DNA of 21,104 nucleotides from a virus: the IMG/VR virus record IMGVR_UViG_3300020162_000752, positions 1 to 21,104 of that record; one strand, given 5' to 3'. The notes beneath the pieces were generated by a model. It had not been told where the DNA came from and searched no databases. It saw nothing but the letters and a program-made list of their open reading frames with translations. The translations under genes and the position numbers were made by a program. This document shows, in pieces, positions 14,271 through 20,093 of the stretch; the stretch's first letter is position 1, and every line of letters starts with the position of its first letter.

Positions 14271-14314
14271 CAAAGACCCTACAGTTGACAAGGCTTTTTG
14301 AAGGTCGATATAAT
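14271..14314 (+). promoter_or_regulatory. Promoter P1
   Basis: TTGACA (14285-14290), 18-bp spacer, TATAAT (14309-14314): a perfect sigma-70 consensus apart from the 18-bp spacing. CAAAGACCCT (14271-14280) can pair with AGGCTTTTTG (14291-14300), one mismatch and one G-U, leaving ACAGTTGACA as the loop. The predicted transcript starts near 14321 with a 7-bp hairpin GACAGCA-ACGG-TGCTGTC (14323-14340). It drives the 55-aa gene and probably the 109-aa gene. Confidence 0.88.
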
Positions 14315-14361
14315 TGAGGCCAGACAGCAACGGTGCTGTCGCAACTTACCAAAGGTAAACA

Positions 14362-14529
14362 ATGCAAATCGATCAAATTATCGTCGCTCTTCAAAACGCA
14401 AAATTGCTTGAAGCAGCAAAGCTGCAGTGTGGCAATGTAGACAACATGTCTATGTTGGTTGCTGTAGCAACAGGAAAGGTTGCAACATACAATGAATTGT
14501 ATGAACTGTATCGCCAACTGATGGCCTGA
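14362..14529 (+). CDS. Small helical early protein
   Basis: This 55-aa frame (MQIDQIIVALQNAKLLEAAK and so on, ending ELYRQLMA) is the first gene behind P1. It is mostly helical and mildly acidic, with no motif I recognise. The ribosome site GGT lies in a mini-hairpin TTACC-AAA-GGTAA directly before the ATG, as in the next three genes, which supports real translation. Position right after the strongest-looking promoter suggests an early host-takeover or regulatory protein, but this is inference. It is short enough to be missed by length cutoffs. Confidence 0.8.
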   Translation: MQIDQIIVALQNAKLLEAAKLQCGNVDNMSMLVAVATGKVATYNELYELYRQLMA

Positions 14530-14537
14530 CAAACTGT

Positions 14538-14561
14538 GCTGTCCCCCTTTAGGGGGATGGC
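14538..14561 (+). other. Strong hairpin between the first two early genes
   Basis: GCTGTCCCCC and GGGGGATGGC form a 10-bp stem (two G-U pairs) with loop TTTA. No U-tract follows, so it is not a standard terminator. It takes the place that the 5'-end hairpin has behind the promoters, so it may be a processing or mRNA-stabilising element. Confidence 0.6.
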
Positions 14562-14591
14562 AACTTCACAACATTACCGAAGGTAAACAAC

Positions 14592-14921
14592 ATGTTCACA
14601 ATCAACGAAATCACAAATGCCGAAGGCAATATCGGCTGGGCCATCATCAAGGACAAAACATCCATCGTGAAGGAATTCACCAGCATTGAAGCGGCCTGTG
14701 CATACTTGGATGCTGTCGAAGACGGCGAAGCAAAACCAGTGGCTCTCAAAAACGTCAAGCCCGGTGACTTCGTCAAACGGAAAGCGGACAGCAAAGCTGT
14801 TTATATCAAAGGTGCATACGACAGAACGACAAAGTCGTTTGAGTTGGTCGATGTCGAAGACATCAATCGGGTCGTGTACATCAAGGCAAGCAAGCTTGTA
14901 TATGTAGGCTTCACATATTGA
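14592..14921 (+). CDS. Conserved-type phage early protein, unknown function
   Basis: This is a 109-aa protein. The N-terminal half (MFTINEITNAEGNIGWAI, KEFTSIEAACAYLDAVEDGE) looks like a small alpha/beta unit. The C-terminal half, from VKPGDFVKRK through AVYIKGAYDR, FELVDVEDINR, YIKASKLVYVGFTY, resembles a short beta-barrel-like domain I have seen in phage early proteins without a known role. The start has the same TTACC-GAA-GGTAA ribosome hairpin as its neighbours. Promoter P2 begins ten bases after the stop. Confidence 0.8.
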   Translation: MFTINEITNAEGNIGWAIIKDKTSIVKEFTSIEAACAYLDAVEDGEAKPVALKNVKPGDFVKRKADSKAVYIKGAYDRTTKSFELVDVEDINRVVYIKASKLVYVGFTY

Positions 14922-14930
14922 AGCGGAGCT

Positions 14931-14977
14931 TTGGAAAGACCCCACAGTTGACAGGGGTTTTCCAAGGTCGATATAAT
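14931..14977 (+). promoter_or_regulatory. Promoter P2
   Basis: TTGACA (14948-14953), 18-bp spacer, TATAAT (14972-14977). TTGGAAAGACCCC (14931-14943) pairs with GGGGTTTTCCAA (14954-14965) with one bulged G, leaving ACAGTTGACA as the loop. The hairpin plus internal T-run may also act as a terminator for the upstream gene. A 5'-end hairpin GCAGC/GCTGC (14986-15001) follows. Confidence 0.88.
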
Positions 14978-15024
14978 TGAGGCCAGCAGCGATTTTGCTG
15001 CGATACTTACCGAAGGTAAACAAC

Positions 15025-15249
15025 ATGTTTCTGATCATTTCCCTCACGTCAGCCGCTATTGCTTTGTACATGATGCAAGACGAAATTGCCTTGTTGCTCA
15101 AAAAAGCCTTTGGCTTTTGTGTCAACGGTGAAGGGTTTACCAAAAAGCATTACACTTTCACCCGAAGCGAAGCTTTGACATGGGTGGCATGCTATGACAA
15201 TGCAACCATCACACAACGTGGCAACTTCGTTGCATCGAAGTCGGTTTAA
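15025..15249 (+). CDS. Small early protein with N-terminal membrane segment
   Basis: This 74-aa protein is drawn from the ATG at 15025, which has the TTACC-GAA-GGTAA ribosome hairpin; the in-frame start at 14977 lies inside promoter P2. Residues 1-17 (MFLIISLTSAAIALYMM) are hydrophobic, a likely membrane anchor or signal. The remainder has LTWVACYDNATITQRGNFVA near the end. I do not recognise a family. It may alter the host envelope early in infection, an inference from the membrane segment and promoter only. P3 overlaps its stop codon. Confidence 0.75.
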   Translation: MFLIISLTSAAIALYMMQDEIALLLKKAFGFCVNGEGFTKKHYTFTRSEALTWVACYDNATITQRGNFVASKSV

Positions 15250-15289
15250 TCCCCTACAGTTGACAGGGATAATCCGAAGTCGATATAAT
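15241..15289 (+). promoter_or_regulatory. Promoter P3
   Basis: TTGACA (15260-15265), 18-bp spacer, TATAAT (15284-15289). ATCCC and TCGG (from 15240) can pair with GGGAT and CCGA (to 15276) with small bulges, again placing ACAGTTGAC in the loop. A 5'-end hairpin GCAGC-AATTTC-GCTGT (15299-15314) follows. The upstream gene's stop codon lies in the left arm. Confidence 0.86.
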
Positions 15290-15337
15290 TGAGGCCATGC
15301 AGCAATTTCGCTGTGTCACTTACCGAAGGTAAACATC

Positions 15338-16093
15338 ATGTTCAAGTCAAAAAATCTGTTGTCTGTGTCAAGCGATGCCAAAACCGTGAAGGGTGAAACC
15401 TTAGGTTTCATGACAGGCATCCTGTATCTTGCACCATTCAAGTCCACGAAGTGGAACACATGTAGCATGGCCGCTATTGCACAATGTGGCGAAGCATGCT
15501 TGTACACTGCAGGACGTGGGGCATTTTCGTCGGTGGCACAGGGTCGAATCAACAAAACCGTATGGTTTTTTGAAGAGCGAAACACTTTCATGCAACAGCT
15601 TGCAAAGAACATTCGTTCTTTAATTGTCAAGGCAAAAAACGCCGCTCAAACCCTGTTGATTCGTTTGAACGGTACAAGTGACATTCGCTGGGAAACCGTA
15701 GGTTTTACTGACGTTGACGGTACTGTTTATGCAAGCATCTTCGATGCTTTCCCTGATGTTCAGTTCTACGACTATACGAAGGATGCCAACCGCAAAGGTT
15801 TACCTTTGAATTATGATCTGACATTCTCGTATAGCGGTGTTGTTGGCTTTCAGCCATTCGTCAACAAAGCCATTGAAAATGGCATGCGAGTCGCTGTTGT
15901 TTTCCGTACAGTTGCATCGATTCCCGCATCGTTCAAGGGTATGACAGTTGTGAGCGGTGATGACAGCGATGTGCGACACATTGACCCGAAGGGTGTTGTT
16001 GTTGCACTGTATGCCAAAGGCAAAGCAAAGCATGACATGACAGGGTTTGTCGTCGATACACCTAAGCCTGTGTTTGTGTTGCAAGCCGCATGA
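15338..16093 (+). CDS. GP88-family phage protein
   Basis: This 251-aa protein has a Cys cluster at C42, C50 and C54 (TCSMAAIAQCGEACLYTAGR). RLNGTSDIRWE (109-119), FPDVQFYDYTKD (138-149) and a C-terminal DVRHIDPKGVVVALYAKGK also match the pattern I remember for the mycobacteriophage gene-88 family (GP88). The biochemical role is unknown; the conserved Cys and acidic motifs suggest metal binding. It is the only gene behind P3 and has the TTACC-GAA-GGTAA ribosome hairpin. A UUCG-type hairpin and P4 follow the stop codon, so it is probably a separate transcription unit. Confidence 0.88.
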   Translation: MFKSKNLLSVSSDAKTVKGETLGFMTGILYLAPFKSTKWNTCSMAAIAQCGEACLYTAGRGAFSSVAQGRINKTVWFFEERNTFMQQLAKNIRSLIVKAKNAAQTLLIRLNGTSDIRWETVGFTDVDGTVYASIFDAFPDVQFYDYTKDANRKGLPLNYDLTFSYSGVVGFQPFVNKAIENGMRVAVVFRTVASIPASFKGMTVVSGDDSDVRHIDPKGVVVALYAKGKAKHDMTGFVVDTPKPVFVLQAA

Positions 16094-16099
16094 GACAAT

Positions 16100-16119
16100 G
16101 CTTCCCCTTCGGGGGAGGC
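16100..16119 (+). terminator. UUCG hairpin behind the GP88-like gene, probable terminator
   Basis: GCTTCCCC and GGGGAGGC form an 8-bp stem (one G-U) closed by the very stable TTCG tetraloop. Only TTTG follows, so termination may be partial. The next inverted repeat (P4) begins at once and carries a TTTTT run that may add to termination. Confidence 0.65.
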
Positions 16120-16168
16120 TTTGCAAAGACCCTACAGTTTGACAGGGTTTTTGCAAAGTCCGCATAAT
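16120..16168 (+). promoter_or_regulatory. Promoter P4
   Basis: TTGACA (16139-16144), 18-bp spacer, CATAAT (16163-16168). TTTGCAAAGACCCT (16120-16133) pairs with AGGGTTTTTGCAAA (16144-16157) over 14 bp with one G-U, the longest stem of the set; the loop is ACAGTTTGAC, with one T more than P1-P3 before TTGACA. A 5'-end hairpin GACG-CATCGC-CGTC (16179-16192) follows. Confidence 0.85.
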
Positions 16169-16195
16169 TGAAAGCATCGACGCATCGCCGTCCAA

Positions 16196-16428
16196 ATTGT
16201 TCTTTAAAAAACCAGCGTGGTGTCAGTATGGCATGTGACAGATGCCTGAAATAGACCAGCGTGATTGTAAGCACGTAACATCTTACACTGCTCATAGCAC
16301 ATGAGGATGATAATGTGCATAGGAACTACGTCATGGCATTGGGGTCGGTGCAGATAATGACGTGGCTTTCATAAGCCTTGTGGCACTGGGTCACAGGGTT
16401 TATATCAAGCCTTCCTAAAGGAAACACA
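16196..16428 (+). promoter_or_regulatory. Long structured leader with boxA-like element
   Basis: No gene is seen between P4 and 16429. The leader begins with ATTGTTCTTTAAAAA (16196-16210), close to the boxA element of bacterial rRNA leaders that binds NusB-NusE and resists termination. ACCAGCGTG occurs twice (16211, 16255). Hairpins are GGCAT/ATGCC (16230-16246), TGTAAG/CTTACA (16266-16287), CTCAT/ATGAG (16291-16305) and ACGTCAT/ATGACGT (16328-16363). Such a leader may allow read-through along the following 3.6 kb of small genes, or may be a small RNA. Confidence 0.5.
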
Positions 16429-16617
16429 ATGACCGATATGACAATCGTTGAAAACGAAGATGGCACATACACTCGAAAGTGGAAATGTGCATGTCACCAA
16501 ATCATCGAAGTGCAATCATGTGATGGTGGCTACGACATTGTATGTGAATGTGACCGATATTTCAATTGCTTCGGTCAGCAACTGCAAACCCCCCATTATG
16601 GGTACGATGACTATTAA
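16429..16617 (+). CDS. Small Cys-rich, zinc-ribbon-like protein
   Basis: This 62-aa protein is drawn from the ATG at 16429, preceded by TTCC-TAAA-GGAA; the earlier in-frame start at 16378 has no ribosome site. Two CxC pairs (C20/C22 and C39/C41) with C31 and C47 between and after them could bind zinc. The N-terminus IVENEDGTYTRKWKC and the spacing resemble zinc-ribbon proteins. DNA or protein binding is plausible, but the family is not certain. It is the first gene behind the P4 leader. Confidence 0.78.
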   Translation: MTDMTIVENEDGTYTRKWKCACHQIIEVQSCDGGYDIVCECDRYFNCFGQQLQTPHYGYDDY

Positions 16618-16635
16618 TTCCTGAAAGGAAACAAC

Positions 16636-17022
16636 ATGAAAGTATTCGTCTACTTCAATCTGCATCGCAAATGCTTTAGCATTAAAGCACTTGAGGGTGC
16701 CAACAAAGGTCGTGTCGTGGCACATCGTAATGATGTGTTGTTGTTCGATGGAACATTCAAGGTGTCCGAAGCAGGTCGTCAACGTGTTCTGAAAGAACAA
16801 CGCAAGAACGTTCATGCTGGTGTCGTTGGACATTGGGACGAGACAGGCACTGACCTGATCACCATTGACCGTGTCACCACCATCGGCACACCCATCACCT
16901 ACAACCCATACAAGTATGACAGCTTCGTCCACTTGTACGGTGAGCATCCCATCAAGACAGGTCGTCTTGTGGCACTGACTGTAAACGAGAACAAACGTTC
17001 TCACATCAACGTCTGGAATTGA
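16636..17022 (+). CDS. Conserved-type phage protein, unknown function
   Basis: This is a 128-aa protein. KVFVYFNLHRKCFSIKALEG, NKGRVVAHRNDVLL, FKVSEAGRQRVLKEQRKNVH and AGVVG are strings I recall from a widespread family of phage hypothetical proteins; no biochemical role is known to me. The ribosome site is the mini-hairpin TTCC-TGAAA-GGAA. The gap to the previous gene is 18 bases, and the next gene starts 1 base after the stop, so it is part of the P4 operon. Confidence 0.83.
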   Translation: MKVFVYFNLHRKCFSIKALEGANKGRVVAHRNDVLLFDGTFKVSEAGRQRVLKEQRKNVHAGVVGHWDETGTDLITIDRVTTIGTPITYNPYKYDSFVHLYGEHPIKTGRLVALTVNENKRSHINVWN

Positions 17023-17023
17023 T

Positions 17024-17197
17024 ATGACAAACCAACAGATCTGCGATAGGTATGACAACTGTCCCAACCTCACCCTTGAACAACTGTCACGAGAGACAGG
17101 GCAGACAGTGGAAGCGTTGAAGAAAATACTTTCTTCACCACCGCAAGCCCCTGTGCAATATGGCCGTCAGCGTTACAGCTATGCGGCATATCGTTGA
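17024..17197 (+). CDS. Small HTH-like protein
   Basis: This 57-aa frame starts with ATG one base after the previous stop, with GGA within the upstream coding end. MTNQQICDRYDNCPNLTLEQ is followed by LSRETGQTVEALKKILSS, which reads like a helix-turn-helix (LTLEQLSRETGQTVEALKK), and then a Tyr/Arg-rich tail (YGRQRYSYAAYR). A small DNA-binding regulator is possible. It is too short for common length cutoffs but the spacing supports it. Confidence 0.7.
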   Translation: MTNQQICDRYDNCPNLTLEQLSRETGQTVEALKKILSSPPQAPVQYGRQRYSYAAYR

Positions 17198-17214
17198 AGT
17201 TTTGACAGTGCTTT

Positions 17215-17273
17215 GTAACACTATTGTTTCACAGTAGTGTTACTGACTCACTGTCGAGTCGTCCTGTATAGGA
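17215..17273 (+). promoter_or_regulatory. Three successive hairpins before the 58-aa gene
   Basis: GTAACACTA/TAGTGTTAC (17215-17243, 9-bp perfect stem, 11-base loop), GACTC/GAGTC (17245-17260) and TCCT-GTAT-AGGA (17262-17273, holding the ribosome site) follow each other. A TTGACA lies at 17202-17207, but no -10 box is seen at 16-18 bp, so a promoter is doubtful. There is no U-tract after the first stem. This may be an mRNA processing or translation-control element. Confidence 0.55.
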
Positions 17274-17279
17274 AACATC

Positions 17280-17456
17280 ATGCGTTTAATCACCAAGAAA
17301 AACGGCATCGAAATCTGGGCACAGTTTGACCAGACAGCACAGGTATATGAGTTGTTCTTCGACAACGAAGGGCAGACATACACAGGCTGGGCTGTCGATT
17401 CCATCAAAGATGCACAGGCTGCATCGGTTTACATCATCCAAGAACAACTTTCCTGA
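17280..17456 (+). CDS. Small hypothetical protein
   Basis: This 58-aa frame reads MRLITKKNGIEIWAQFDQTA, then QVYELFFDNEGQTYTGWAVD and SIKDAQAASVYIIQEQLS. It looks like a small beta-alpha fold and I do not recognise a family. The ribosome site AGGAAAC sits in the TCCT-GTAT-AGGA mini-hairpin. Eleven bases separate it from the next gene, whose own ribosome hairpin overlaps this stop codon. It is unlisted by usual length cutoffs. Confidence 0.75.
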   Translation: MRLITKKNGIEIWAQFDQTAQVYELFFDNEGQTYTGWAVDSIKDAQAASVYIIQEQLS

Positions 17457-17467
17457 AAGGAACTATC

Positions 17468-17854
17468 ATGGGCTTAGACATGTATGCATTCACCGTCCCT
17501 GCTGAATGGGCAGGTGACACTAGCACAGACTACACACCTGATGCTGACAGAAAAACAACAGAACTTTATTACTGGCGCAAATTCAATGCTTTGCATGGCT
17601 GGATGGAAGATCTCTATCGTGCAAAATACGGTGCTAAAGCAAGCTTTAATTGTGCCACCGTTCGTCTTGATCTGAAAGATCTTGACCGACTTGAGATGGA
17701 CACAGGCAACAATAAGCTGGTGCCCGTTAACGGGTTCTTCTTCGGTGAGCAGGCAGTGTATCCCGAAGATCTCGAAAGCGTTGCCGACTTCATTGCTAAA
17801 GCAAGAGAGGCACTGGCTGATGGCAAGGCTGTGTTCTACGACTCATGGTGGTGA
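17468..17854 (+). CDS. Conserved-type phage protein (MGLDMYAF family)
   Basis: This is a 128-aa protein. MGLDMYAFTVPAEW at the start, then LYYWRKFNALHGWMEDLYR, SFNCATVRLDLKDLDRLE and NGFFFG are strings I remember from a common family of small phage and prophage proteins without known activity. It ends with ADGKAVFYDSWW. The conserved Trp, His and Cys could form an active or metal site, but that is not established. The ribosome site is TTCC-TGAAA-GGAA. The next gene begins 2 bases after the stop. Confidence 0.85.
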   Translation: MGLDMYAFTVPAEWAGDTSTDYTPDADRKTTELYYWRKFNALHGWMEDLYRAKYGAKASFNCATVRLDLKDLDRLEMDTGNNKLVPVNGFFFGEQAVYPEDLESVADFIAKAREALADGKAVFYDSWW

Positions 17855-17856
17855 CT

Positions 17857-18021
17857 ATGGATACATACCGCAAGACACACAAAGAATTCTTCTTTGCTTG
17901 TGCTTATCTGCGACACTTCTATGGCCTGTCCACAGTGTGTCTTGAGAAGATCGACAAGTGGTTGACCGAGGATGAAATCGCTGACTTTACAGTGGCTTAC
18001 ATGGGTGGAGGTGAACTATGA
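17857..18021 (+). CDS. Small hypothetical protein
   Basis: This 54-aa frame reads MDTYRKTHKEFFFACAYLRH, then FYGLSTVCLEKIDKWLTEDE and IADFTVAYMGGGEL. It is helical and mildly acidic. GGTGGTG overlaps the end of the previous gene as a weak ribosome site, and its stop overlaps the next ATG (ATGA). The overlap chain supports a real gene. No family recognised; it is short enough to be missed. Confidence 0.72.
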   Translation: MDTYRKTHKEFFFACAYLRHFYGLSTVCLEKIDKWLTEDEIADFTVAYMGGGEL

Positions 18022-18284
18022 CAATCGTTGCAGAGCGTTCCATTAACAATGGAACACAGGAAATCCATCGTTTCGATAACGGTTATGGTGCAAGCAAAGT
18101 GATGCACGATTTCAGTTATGGTGGTAATCGCAATTTGTGGGAGATTGCTGTCATCAAATTCACTGGCGATGGTGCATGGGATTGGCGCATAACCTATGAC
18201 ACACCTATTACCACTGACGTGATAGGACACCTGACATACTCCGAAGCACAGGATGTGTTGCAACAAATCAAGGAACTAACATGA
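18018..18284 (+). CDS. Conserved-type phage protein, unknown function
   Basis: This 88-aa protein has FDNGYGASKVMHDFSYGG, LWEIAVIKFTGDG, ITYDTPITTDVIGHL and a final helix VLQQIKEL. I recall this pattern from small phage proteins of unknown function. GGAGGTGA before the ATG is a very strong ribosome site, although it lies in the previous gene. Both ends have ATGA overlaps, so translation is coupled with both neighbours. Confidence 0.83.
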   Translation: MTIVAERSINNGTQEIHRFDNGYGASKVMHDFSYGGNRNLWEIAVIKFTGDGAWDWRITYDTPITTDVIGHLTYSEAQDVLQQIKELT

Positions 18285-18553
18285 GCAAAACATTCACCAT
18301 CACAATGTACACAGACCCCGGTCATGGCTGGGGCAAAGTCAAGCGAGAGGTGTTGGTCAACCTCGGCATTGCCGACAAGATTACACGATACAGCTACCAA
18401 CGTGGCGACTATGCCTACCTTGAGGAAGACTGCGACCTGACCACCCTGTGCATGGCTCTTACAGAGCGTGACACTCGGGTCAAGTTTGTCGAGAAGCACA
18501 GCAACCGAGACAGTCGTATTCGTGGCTATGAAAGATACAGCTATGGCTTCTAA
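18281..18553 (+). CDS. Conserved-type phage protein, unknown function
   Basis: This 90-aa protein has YTDPGHGWGKVKREVLVNLG, IADKITRYSYQRGDYAYLEE and DCDLTTLCMAL, ending IRGYERYSYGF. The GHGW and YLEED(C)D motifs are typical of a small family seen in many phages; its function is unknown to me. AAGGA lies before the ATG, and the start overlaps the previous stop (ATGA). It overlaps the next small gene by about 11 bp. Confidence 0.85.
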   Translation: MSKTFTITMYTDPGHGWGKVKREVLVNLGIADKITRYSYQRGDYAYLEEDCDLTTLCMALTERDTRVKFVEKHSNRDSRIRGYERYSYGF

Positions 18554-18650
18554 CGTATGGCCGTTCCCGCCATTCCCTAATCCGCTTGACCGACCCAACG
18601 GTAAACTGCCACCGTTCAACCCCAACAACCATGAGGATGCACCACTATGA
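18543..18650 (+). CDS. Tiny Pro-rich protein
   Basis: This 35-aa frame reads MASNVWPFPPFPNPLDRPNG and KLPPFNPNNHEDAPL. Nearly a third of residues are Pro, so it is likely unfolded or a binding peptide. The start could instead be the ATG at 18528 (five residues earlier). The stop overlaps the next gene's ATG (ATGA), in line with the surrounding gene chain. Function unknown, and a non-coding spacer with a chance frame is the alternative. Confidence 0.6.
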   Translation: MASNVWPFPPFPNPLDRPNGKLPPFNPNNHEDAPL

Positions 18651-18991
18651 AAAAGAAACAACCCACTATTGCAGATGTGTTGCACTGCGCTGCTGACAAC
18701 TGCTTAGTTGCACACTCACGGTATGAATCTGCTAACGAAAAGTATTCATGTTGTGCTGTCAGTGATGCTGTCTTTCAGCTGACAGGTGAGTGTAGCAAGG
18801 AGACAAGTGAGCTTTCTATCCGTATCCTTGAAGGTCTAAACAACATGGGATGCAACACAGGTAGTTTTCGCCTGTTTACAAAGTATGGCGACAACCCAGA
18901 AGAATTCTTTGAAGTCAATCACAAAGTGCAAGGCATGCGTTACATGTGGCTCAAGTGGGCGGCACTGATGGCAGAAGAACAGGGTGTATGA
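18647..18991 (+). CDS. Conserved-type phage protein, unknown function
   Basis: This is a 114-aa protein. TIADVLHCAADNCL at the N-terminus, YSCCAVSDAVFQL, and a C-terminal QGMRYMWLKWAALMAEEQ fit a helical phage family I have seen without assigned role. Six Cys residues are present. GAGGA lies 12 bases upstream of the ATG. It overlaps its upstream neighbour by 4 bp (ATGA), and the hydrolase gene starts 1 base after its stop. Confidence 0.8.
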   Translation: MKKKQPTIADVLHCAADNCLVAHSRYESANEKYSCCAVSDAVFQLTGECSKETSELSIRILEGLNNMGCNTGSFRLFTKYGDNPEEFFEVNHKVQGMRYMWLKWAALMAEEQGV

Positions 18992-18992
18992 C

Positions 18993-19457
18993 ATGACCCG
19001 ACACATCCCCATCGCTGTGTTCTGTTGTGCGTTGCTGTTGTCTACAGCATCATGTGAACATCAACCTGTGCCATCAACTACAGCCAGCGCTGATTGGTGG
19101 TGCATGTTGAAGAACATCTATCACGAAGCAGGCGGTGAGGGTGTTAAGGGCATGCAAGCTGTGGCACTGGTCACCCTGAACAGGGCTAAGCAGAAAGGCA
19201 AGACAGTGTGTGAGGTGGTGTTTGCACCTAAGCAATTTAGCTGGGCTAACACTGAGAAGGGACGCAACAAACCCTTAAGGGGCAACCTCAACAATGCATA
19301 CGATGTAGCTACACAGGCTATGGCTGGTAAGCTACACGACTTTACAGGTGGTGCCACCCACTACCATACGACAGCAGTTAAACCAGTGTGGCGCACTGCA
19401 CTGAACAAACTTGTTGTTATAAACAACCACATTTTTTATAAGGAAAAAACAAAATGA
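18993..19457 (+). CDS. SleB-type cell wall hydrolase with signal sequence (probable endolysin)
   Basis: This is a 154-aa protein. Residues 1-21 (MTRHIPIAVFCCALLLSTAS then C) form a signal peptide or a lipoprotein signal with a weak lipobox TASC. The mature part has IYHEAGGEGVKGMQAVALVT (catalytic Glu likely E45), LNRAKQKGKTVCEVVFAPKQ, FSW and GATHYHTT, the pattern of the SleB/hydrolase-2 family that cuts peptidoglycan. It is probably the phage endolysin, exported or membrane-held rather than holin-dependent; a role in DNA entry is the alternative. The ATG at 18993 with AGGG upstream is preferred over GTG at 18984. Its stop overlaps the next ATG. No holin is seen beside it. Confidence 0.88.
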   Translation: MTRHIPIAVFCCALLLSTASCEHQPVPSTTASADWWCMLKNIYHEAGGEGVKGMQAVALVTLNRAKQKGKTVCEVVFAPKQFSWANTEKGRNKPLRGNLNNAYDVATQAMAGKLHDFTGGATHYHTTAVKPVWRTALNKLVVINNHIFYKEKTK

Positions 19458-19654
19458 CTGACGAAACAACACCAACCCGTAGCCGTGGCCGACCTGCTTA
19501 TGCAGAGAAGGCACCCCGTGAACTGCGTGATGACTTCGCCCTTGAGATAATGAAGGGTGTGCTTGCAAGCGGTGCCGCCATCGAAGATCCTGCCGCACTG
19601 TCTCGCCATTGCTACAAGATTGCTGATGCATTATGCAAGGTGCGTGGTGAATGA
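19454..19654 (+). CDS. Small basic protein with AT-hook-like RGRP
   Basis: This is a 66-aa protein. TRSRGRPAYAEK near the start contains RGRP, the core of an AT-hook that binds the minor groove. The rest is helical (FALEIMKGVLASGAA, CYKIADALCKV). AAGGAAAA precedes the ATG, which overlaps the hydrolase stop (ATGA). A DNA-binding or packaging accessory role is possible; no family is certain. Confidence 0.75.
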   Translation: MTDETTPTRSRGRPAYAEKAPRELRDDFALEIMKGVLASGAAIEDPAALSRHCYKIADALCKVRGE

Positions 19655-19850
19655 CATAGCCTACTGTGTAGGCAAAGCACACGGCATGAGAGGTCAAGCC
19701 AACCATGCCAACATCTTCTCACCCATTGGATGCACAGAGTATCTTCGATACAACAAAGGCTACACCGATGGTGTGCTAGAAACAAAGAAGGACATTGAAC
19801 ATGATCAGCGAAATAGACATTCAAGACTACGAACAGCTACCCATCCGTGA
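19647..19850 (+). CDS. Small protein, probable GTG start
   Basis: This 67-aa frame is drawn from GTG at 19647, with AAGG six bases upstream; GTG at 19644 is the alternative. NIFSPIGCTEYLRYNKGYTD and GV after it resemble a recurring phage motif of type Y..GY.DG. It ends in a basic tail (QRNRHSRLRTATHP) that overlaps the next gene by 50 bp in another frame. The start overlaps the previous stop by 8 bp. Function unknown. Confidence 0.6.
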   Translation: MNDIAYCVGKAHGMRGQANHANIFSPIGCTEYLRYNKGYTDGVLETKKDIEHDQRNRHSRLRTATHP

Positions 19851-20037
19851 GTTGTACAAAGTCAGACCCCGCTCCTACATCAAGCTACCTTGGATGGAAG
19901 GTGTCGATGATGATGTGTTGTTTTTTGACCACATCGATGGGATGTACAGCTATTGCCTGAACATGCAGAACGAAGTTGTACACATTCAAGCATGGGCTGA
20001 GGTGATACCGCTTGTGCAGAAAGCAAAGCCCGACTAA
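19801..20037 (+). CDS. Small hypothetical protein
   Basis: This 78-aa protein is drawn from the ATG at 19801 with AAGGA nine bases upstream; a TTG two codons earlier is less likely. MISEIDIQDYEQLPIRELYK, VRPRSYIKLPWMEGVDDDVL, FFDHIDGMYSYCLN and so on look like a small acidic beta-rich fold. I do not recognise a family. It is the last gene before P5. Confidence 0.75.
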   Translation: MISEIDIQDYEQLPIRELYKVRPRSYIKLPWMEGVDDDVLFFDHIDGMYSYCLNMQNEVVHIQAWAEVIPLVQKAKPD

Positions 20038-20046
20038 CTTGTAGGG

Positions 20047-20093
20047 TTTTCTGGATGGTTTATTTGACAAGCCATCTGGAAAGCCTTTACACT
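20047..20093 (+). promoter_or_regulatory. Promoter P5
   Basis: TTGACA (20064-20069), 18-bp spacer, TACACT (20088-20093, 4 of 6). TTTTCTGGATGG (20047-20058) pairs with CCATCTGGAAAG (20072-20083) over 12 bp including three G-U, with TTGACA in the 13-base loop. The stem sequence is unrelated to P1-P4. A 5'-end hairpin GGCA-ATCA-TGCC (20107-20118) and a ribosome hairpin CCT-ACTT-AGG (20120-20129) follow. Its -10 box is weaker than P1-P3. Confidence 0.7.

Follow-up and report, generated by a model that had tools for sequence, protein, structure and literature searches.

The extended start-associated sequences (ESAS) of cluster K mycobacteriophages are modules of 46-47 bp that combine SigA-like hexamers, set 17-18 bp apart, with an imperfect inverted repeat; they are suspected to bind a regulator (PMC11373665, PMC3203893). 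The short intergenic regions between early genes of L5-like mycobacteriophages contain numerous copies of a single site, the stoperator (PMC9283540). A paper on HMO-2011-type phages mentions neither promoters nor terminators (PMC9038755). A search of the literature on overlapping promoters and terminators in phages found nothing closer than ESAS. In this study, five early promoters (P1-P5) were analysed in the IMG/VR virus record IMGVR_UViG_3300020162_000752. The window, i.e. the whole stretch of DNA analysed, is the entire record (21,104 bases) and is probably a fragment of a virus genome. A preliminary description of this DNA had placed the -35 box of each promoter in the loop of an inverted repeat, the arms of which change yet stay complementary, and had taken this as selection for the structure. 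The results presented here show that hairpin and promoter evolve separately; the arrangement is a compact overlap of signals, not a promoter working by folding.

Sequence and folding of the five promoters

The small early genes lie on the + strand of the window from 14.3 kb onward, and P1-P5 are on the same strand. TTGACA starts at positions 14285 (P1), 14948 (P2), 15260 (P3), 16139 (P4) and 20064 (P5); the spacer is 18 nt in all five, and the -10 box reads TATAAT in P1-P3, CATAAT in P4 and TACACT in P5. Compared with the sigma-70-type consensus (TTGACA, 16-18 bp, TATAAT), P1, P2 and P3 match at all 12 positions, P4 at 11 and P5 at 10. Exact TTGACA-N16-19-TATAAT occurs three times in the window, versus 0.01 expected. 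The preliminary description of five promoters with TTGACA, an 18-bp spacer and a TATAAT-like box was thus accurate, and these sequences suggest that strong promoters of the sigma-70 type drive the early genes.

P1 (14272-14314) contains the dyad AAAGACCCTACAGTTGACAAGGCTTTT, which is centred on the -35 box (14285-14290) and has a dyad score of 14/14; the -10 box is at 14309-14314, and there is no stable hairpin. It is the first promoter past a divergent intergenic region, and no convincing gene was found upstream of it. P2 (14930-14977), located 26 nt past a stop codon, carries both the dyad and a long hairpin, TTTGGAAAGACCCC/GGGGTTTTCCAA (14930-14965), with the -35 box (14948-14953) in the loop and the -10 box at 14972-14977. 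In P3 (15234-15289), the dyad is accompanied by an imperfect stem, ATCGAAGTCGGTTTAATCCC/GGGATAATCCGAAGTCGAT, the 5' arm of which contains the stop codon TAA (15247-15249); the -35 and -10 boxes are at 15260-15265 and 15284-15289. P4 (16117-16168) has a 17-bp hairpin, GGCTTTGCAAAGACCCT/AGGGTTTTTGCAAAGTCC (16117-16161); its -35 box (16139-16144) spans the loop and the beginning of the 3' arm, and the -10 box follows at 16163-16168. P5 (20040-20093) has a long RNA hairpin (20040-20091) that begins 2 nt past a stop codon and holds the -35 box (20064-20069) in its loop; the -10 box is at 20088-20093. The CCC/GGG core is absent from P5, which falls into another sequence class than P1-P4.

The folding of 54 nt around each -35 box was compared with 500 dinucleotide shuffles. 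P2, P4 and P5 were far more stable than chance (z -3.7, -6.4 and -6.7, with 2, 0 and 0 of the 500 shuffles at least as stable), P3 was modestly so (z -2.2; 12/500), and P1 was no better than its shuffles (z +0.2; 258/500). P3 had been described as the weakest stem; it is P1 that has no stem, and the P3 stem is longer and imperfect (about 15234-15284).

The dyad and the long hairpins around the -35 box

Relatives were gathered from IMG/VR via their portal, gp88 and DUF932 proteins. The collected sequences contained 135 distinct TTGACA sites with a -10 box; 79 of these had CCY upstream and GG downstream and formed 46 clusters, one of which, from a different context, was excluded from later tests (45 clusters). 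The dyad consensus, AAWARCCCY-ACAS-TTGACA-RGG-N-TWTT with the -35 box at its centre, is present in P1-P4 and most relatives. Across clusters of homologous promoters, information content is high at AA-W-A-R-CCC and RGG-N-T-W-TT; the clusters were selected by CC/GG, so the invariance of these letters is partly due to that selection, which does not account for the conservation of AAWA, ACA and TWTT. Where a -10 box follows TTGACA, 82 of 133 distinct sites had CC/GG flanks, versus 16 of 1926 sites where none follows. In many modules, the stop codon of the preceding gene (TAA or TAG) is incorporated in the half site, for example in AATAACCCC and AATAGCCC. No promoter modules of this type were found in the scanned stretches of the isolates HMO-2011, MW202701 and DC31.

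The inner CCC/GGG arms have an identical sequence in nearly all clusters. At -11, as at +6, A and T are about equally frequent, and the two positions are Watson-Crick partners in only 21 of the 45 clusters. In a stem, such free positions would covary; they do not, and the dyad is therefore read as a DNA site recognised by a protein. Its presence at P1, the first promoter, which has no convincing gene upstream, fits this reading. The inner dyad, conserved in sequence and not covarying, is likely to be such a site; a dimeric regulator is the most likely reader, and the postulated protein would probably be a repressor covering the -35 box. A protein site had been among the readings offered earlier, and it suits the inner dyad.

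The dyad shares its GGG with a GGG/CCC hairpin inside the spacer, where native pairing beats swapped controls (z -4.9); this pairing may reflect an alternative dyad or a further half site. In some modules of L198, L199, L200, L205, L208 and other relatives, GGG after the -35 box pairs instead with CCC immediately ahead of the -10 box, for example in AAGGGCATTAGTTTGCCCTT. In more distant relatives (L143 at 2790 and L133 at 581, both on the - strand), consensus promoters contain a different dyad, CCACAGGTA...TACCTGTGG, which reaches from the -35 to the -10 box. In the window, half sites of the same kind as in P1-P4 are found without a -35 box at 20024-20050 (AAAGCCC-GACTAACTTGTA-GGGTTTT), overlapping the stop codon before P5; they compete with the P5 hairpin for GGG.

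When arms were swapped over the 45 clusters, a promoter's own arms paired no better than foreign arms (z -1.0); long stems are thus confined to a minority of modules and are not a family-wide property. A general covariation of arms across all promoters was tested and was absent. Strong arms were present in 16 of the 17 modules located 25-49 nt past a stop codon versus 3 of the 33 within 22 nt, counts that are not independent, since these modules come mainly from two orthologous positions (P2-type and P4-type) and the long-arm modules as a whole occupy few (P2-type, P4-type and P5). In an alignment of 17 long-arm modules, partly picked for strong arms, 7 of 16 pairs were compensatory (covariation score 0.346; shuffles 0.153, slid pairings no higher than 0.112). 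Among P5 orthologues, 5 of 22 pairs were compensatory and 100% of cells were paired; for example, the arms are GGATGGTTT/AAGCCATCTGG in the window and GAACAACTT/AAGTTGTTTGG in L170. Compensatory changes in orthologues, as expected of a selected RNA hairpin, were therefore found for the P5, P2 and P4 types and not family-wide. The notion of arms that change yet stay complementary holds for the long-arm modules and P5, but fails for the invariant inner arms and the family as a whole. Selection for structure is likewise retained for the P2/P4-type modules and P5, without support for a functional link of the hairpin to the -35 box.

Under strand-neutral scoring, the long stems contained 65 G-T versus 19 A-C juxtapositions on the + strand, and the + strand was more stable than the - strand in 26 of 26 tabulated long-arm modules. 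P3 is an exception, having no G-T pairs and a more stable - strand. The bias towards the + strand indicates that the molecule under selection for P2, P4 and P5 is RNA transcribed from upstream; the promoter's own transcript starts downstream of the -10 box and is thus not the selected hairpin RNA. Moreover, each element can be lost alone. The P5 hairpin is kept where TTGACA is replaced by TTGCAA (L173, L181), TCGACA (L202), TTGTGT (L187), TTGCAC (L190, L193) or TTTACA (L195), and TTGACA with a -10 box is kept without the P5 hairpin in L177, L178 and L183 (z -0.9 to -0.1). Of 34 relatives in which TTGACA is missing after the gp88-like gene, 18 still fold there at z < -2, many of them through AAAGCCC/GGGCTTT arms around a short loop. 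In most homologous promoters, TTGACA and a TATAAT-like box are present although the outer arms are not complementary, which contradicts a functional link between hairpin and -35 box.

We consider it fairly probable that two independent signals share the same bases, namely a regulator dyad centred on the -35 box and an RNA hairpin of the upstream transcript. In this explanation, early sigma-70-type promoters carry AAWARCCCY and RGGNTWTT symmetrically about the -35 box, and a dimeric regulator would bind them. Where 25-49 nt separate the preceding stop codon from the -35 box, as well as at P5, the sequence around that box would be extended into a hairpin; this may act as RNA in the transcript of the upstream gene and form or protect its 3' end, either as a terminator or as an RNase III-type site. 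The -35 box would be found in the loop because the loop, alone among the parts of a hairpin, needs no complementarity. Such overprinting may allow a compact phage genome to let one unit end where the following one begins. Most likely, the hairpin belongs to the 3' end of the upstream transcript as a terminator or a processing site, has the -35 box in its loop and plays no role in promoter recognition, and the earlier idea that the end of the upstream unit is fused with the next promoter is supported.

Several points weigh against this explanation. Besides the few orthologous positions and the partial selection of modules mentioned above, a search for a regulator gene gave only weak helix-turn-helix-like or regulator matches among the small early proteins, and the combination of AAWA/TWTT and CCC/GGG in the dyad flanks is also reminiscent of a minimal bidirectional terminator. 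A scan for the intrinsic terminator pattern, which excluded loops > 8 nt and hence the 10-nt loops present here, found none at P1-P5. At P2 and P4, the 3' arm runs past the T-run almost to the -10 box; 3' arms beyond the T-run are not needed for termination, so processing or stabilisation is favoured over simple termination at these two promoters. T-runs had been ascribed to P1, P2 and P4. In P2 and P4 the T-run lies within the stem, and T-runs directly after the stem are found only at P5 orthologues such as L187-L196, where GGGG/CCCC-type stems are followed by ATTTTG or TTTTTG and appear terminator-like by eye.

It is conceivable, though doubtful, that the hairpins serve the processing (of RNase III type) or the stability of a read-through early mRNA and cause no termination at all, as in the T7 early region. 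Stems of 17-22 pairs, arms that extend past any T-run and the lack of a canonical terminator pattern are consistent with this, whereas the T-runs right after the GGGG/CCCC stem in several P5 orthologues, and a terminator-like hairpin, CAAGCCCTATTGACTAGGGTTTG, after the gp88-like gene of MW202701, argue for termination. We think it unlikely that the whole inverted repeat, inner and outer arms together, is one protein-binding operator dyad with hairpin potential as a by-product. The inner dyad is indeed conserved in sequence and tied to promoters, and a similar combination of promoter and inverted repeat, ESAS, has been read as a possible regulator site (PMC11373665). However, the outer arms vary among modules and covary, the large excess of G-T over A-C on the + strand is not expected of a double-stranded DNA dyad, and P5 has a strong hairpin without the core dyad.

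A structure-dependent promoter, in which a cruciform or single-stranded DNA hairpin presents the -35 box to RNA polymerase, as with N4 virion RNA polymerase or single-strand promoters, is very improbable. In its favour, P2-P5 all have the -35 box within the loop or next to it, and folding with DNA parameters also gives stable hairpins for P2, P4 and P5. Nevertheless, P1 folds no better than its shuffles with these parameters too, the stem is missing from most homologous promoters and hence does not occur wherever the promoter is kept, TTGACA and hairpin are lost independently, and P5 reaches -26.2 kcal/mol as + strand RNA, -12.6 as - strand RNA and only -8.8 as DNA. The cruciform or single-strand reading of the preliminary description is disfavoured by the predominance of G-T over A-C on the + strand and the lower stability of long stems on the - strand, and promoter recognition of this kind was rejected on strand asymmetry and separability. 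Chance complementarity around a conserved promoter, which may account for P1 and the outer arms of most relatives, is scarcely credible as a general explanation, since P2, P4 and P5 exceed their shuffles (2/500, 0/500 and 0/500) and compensatory changes refute it there.

Phage context and the leader RNA of P4

The structural genes (terminase, portal, major head protein) are on the - strand of the window. The early genes of the + strand include homologues of mycobacteriophage L5 gp88 and gp82, a DUF932 protein and a cell-wall hydrolase. The terminase shares 81% identity with that of podovirus MW202701 and 69% with that of Puniceispirillum phage HMO-2011, and the window therefore belongs to an HMO-2011-type phage; a megablast search against known phages gave no match. 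The gp88-like protein has 65% identity to its counterpart in Limnohabitans phage DC31, a weak hint of a betaproteobacterial host; when it was searched in genomes for a host, only distant matches (31-42% identity) were obtained. Directly 3' of the gp88-like gene and upstream of P4 is a GC-rich hairpin, GCTTCCCC-TTC-GGGGGAGGC (16100-16119, + strand), which is kept in relatives.

A structured leader RNA is expected from P4 at 16199-16388 (+ strand), between the gp88-like and gp82-like genes. It starts with GTTCTTTAAAAA, resembling the boxA of rRNA operons (TGCTCTTTAACA in E. coli), followed by a closed stem, a hairpin, an H-type pseudoknot and a final GGGGTC-loop stem. In an alignment of 23 relatives, the structure comprises 33 pairs in 6 helices, including the pseudoknot; it was drawn by eye on the same sequences, and the compensatory changes at 25 of the 33 pairs provide independent support. 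The covariation score is 0.703 versus at most 0.152 in slid controls. A covariance model found the leader once each in 53 of the 79 sources searched, including 7 members outside the training set (L087, L204-L208 and L213; E 1e-5 to 1e-3); the model did not find it in HMO-2011 or MW202701. No covariance model of Rfam matched the leader, and blastn against plasmids and phages gave no match. Its boxA and position suggest that it may be a processive antitermination element. One speculative scheme is that junction hairpins end or process the single-gene transcripts of P1-P3, that the boxA-pseudoknot leader of P4 modifies host RNA polymerase to read through later hairpins such as that of P5, and that the regulator acts on all early promoters via the -35 dyad.

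Short stem-loops lie where the transcripts of P1, P2 and P3 are predicted to begin: GACAGCAacggTGCTGTC (14320-14345), GCAGCgattttGCTGC (14984-15000) and GCAGCaatttcGCTGT (15297-15315). Ribosome-binding sites lie within small inverted repeats, with TTACCgaaGGTAA before four early genes (14346-14358, 14574-14586, 15007-15019 and 15320-15332) and TTCCTgaaAGGAA before two others, just ahead of the starts at 16636 and 17468. Since 38% of random 34-mers from the early region form a stem of at least 4 with this geometry, these inverted repeats may be significant only in the recurrence of their sequence.

Comparison with known systems

This study illustrates how the same bases can accommodate both a promoter and an RNA hairpin. 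The asymmetry between G-U and A-C, together with the loss of single elements, offers a clean way to separate an RNA signal from a DNA dyad. A further outcome is a portable early-promoter motif for a freshwater phage group that is widespread and mostly uncultured. The work also revealed a leader RNA with strong covariation and no Rfam entry, a possible antitermination element of phages.

In the early region of T7, a podovirus, long RNase III hairpins occur between small early genes. The phage analysed here likewise has long hairpins among small early genes; they differ in coinciding with host-type promoters. An intrinsic terminator that overlaps the next promoter is similar in that the hairpin comes right after the stop codon, some T-runs are present and a promoter is immediately downstream; here, however, the loop contains the -35 box, and the promoter spacer is covered by the 3' arm. 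In L5, the stoperator-type site overlaps a -35 region, and L5-like phages resemble this one in having many site copies in short early intergenic regions. L5-type sites are asymmetric, whereas the site found here is a symmetric dyad that is nearly always within a promoter.

ESAS are repeated intergenic modules of promoter and inverted repeat, conserved in sequence and scattered before individual genes, as are the modules of this phage, and a terminator-like stem-loop was noted upstream of one ESAS. The repeats are 17 bp long there versus half sites of 8-9 bp (AAWARCCCY/RGGNTWTT) here, and the hosts and the phage group are different. The 17-bp imperfect repeats near the start-associated sequence GGGATAGGAGCCC, which characterise ESAS, were not found, and the start-site sequence here is TTACCGAAGGTAA. 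Some modules here extend into long RNA hairpins that covary and hold the -35 box in their loop; the accessible text on ESAS reports no such hairpins. On these accounts, the dyad modules work like ESAS but are not members of them.

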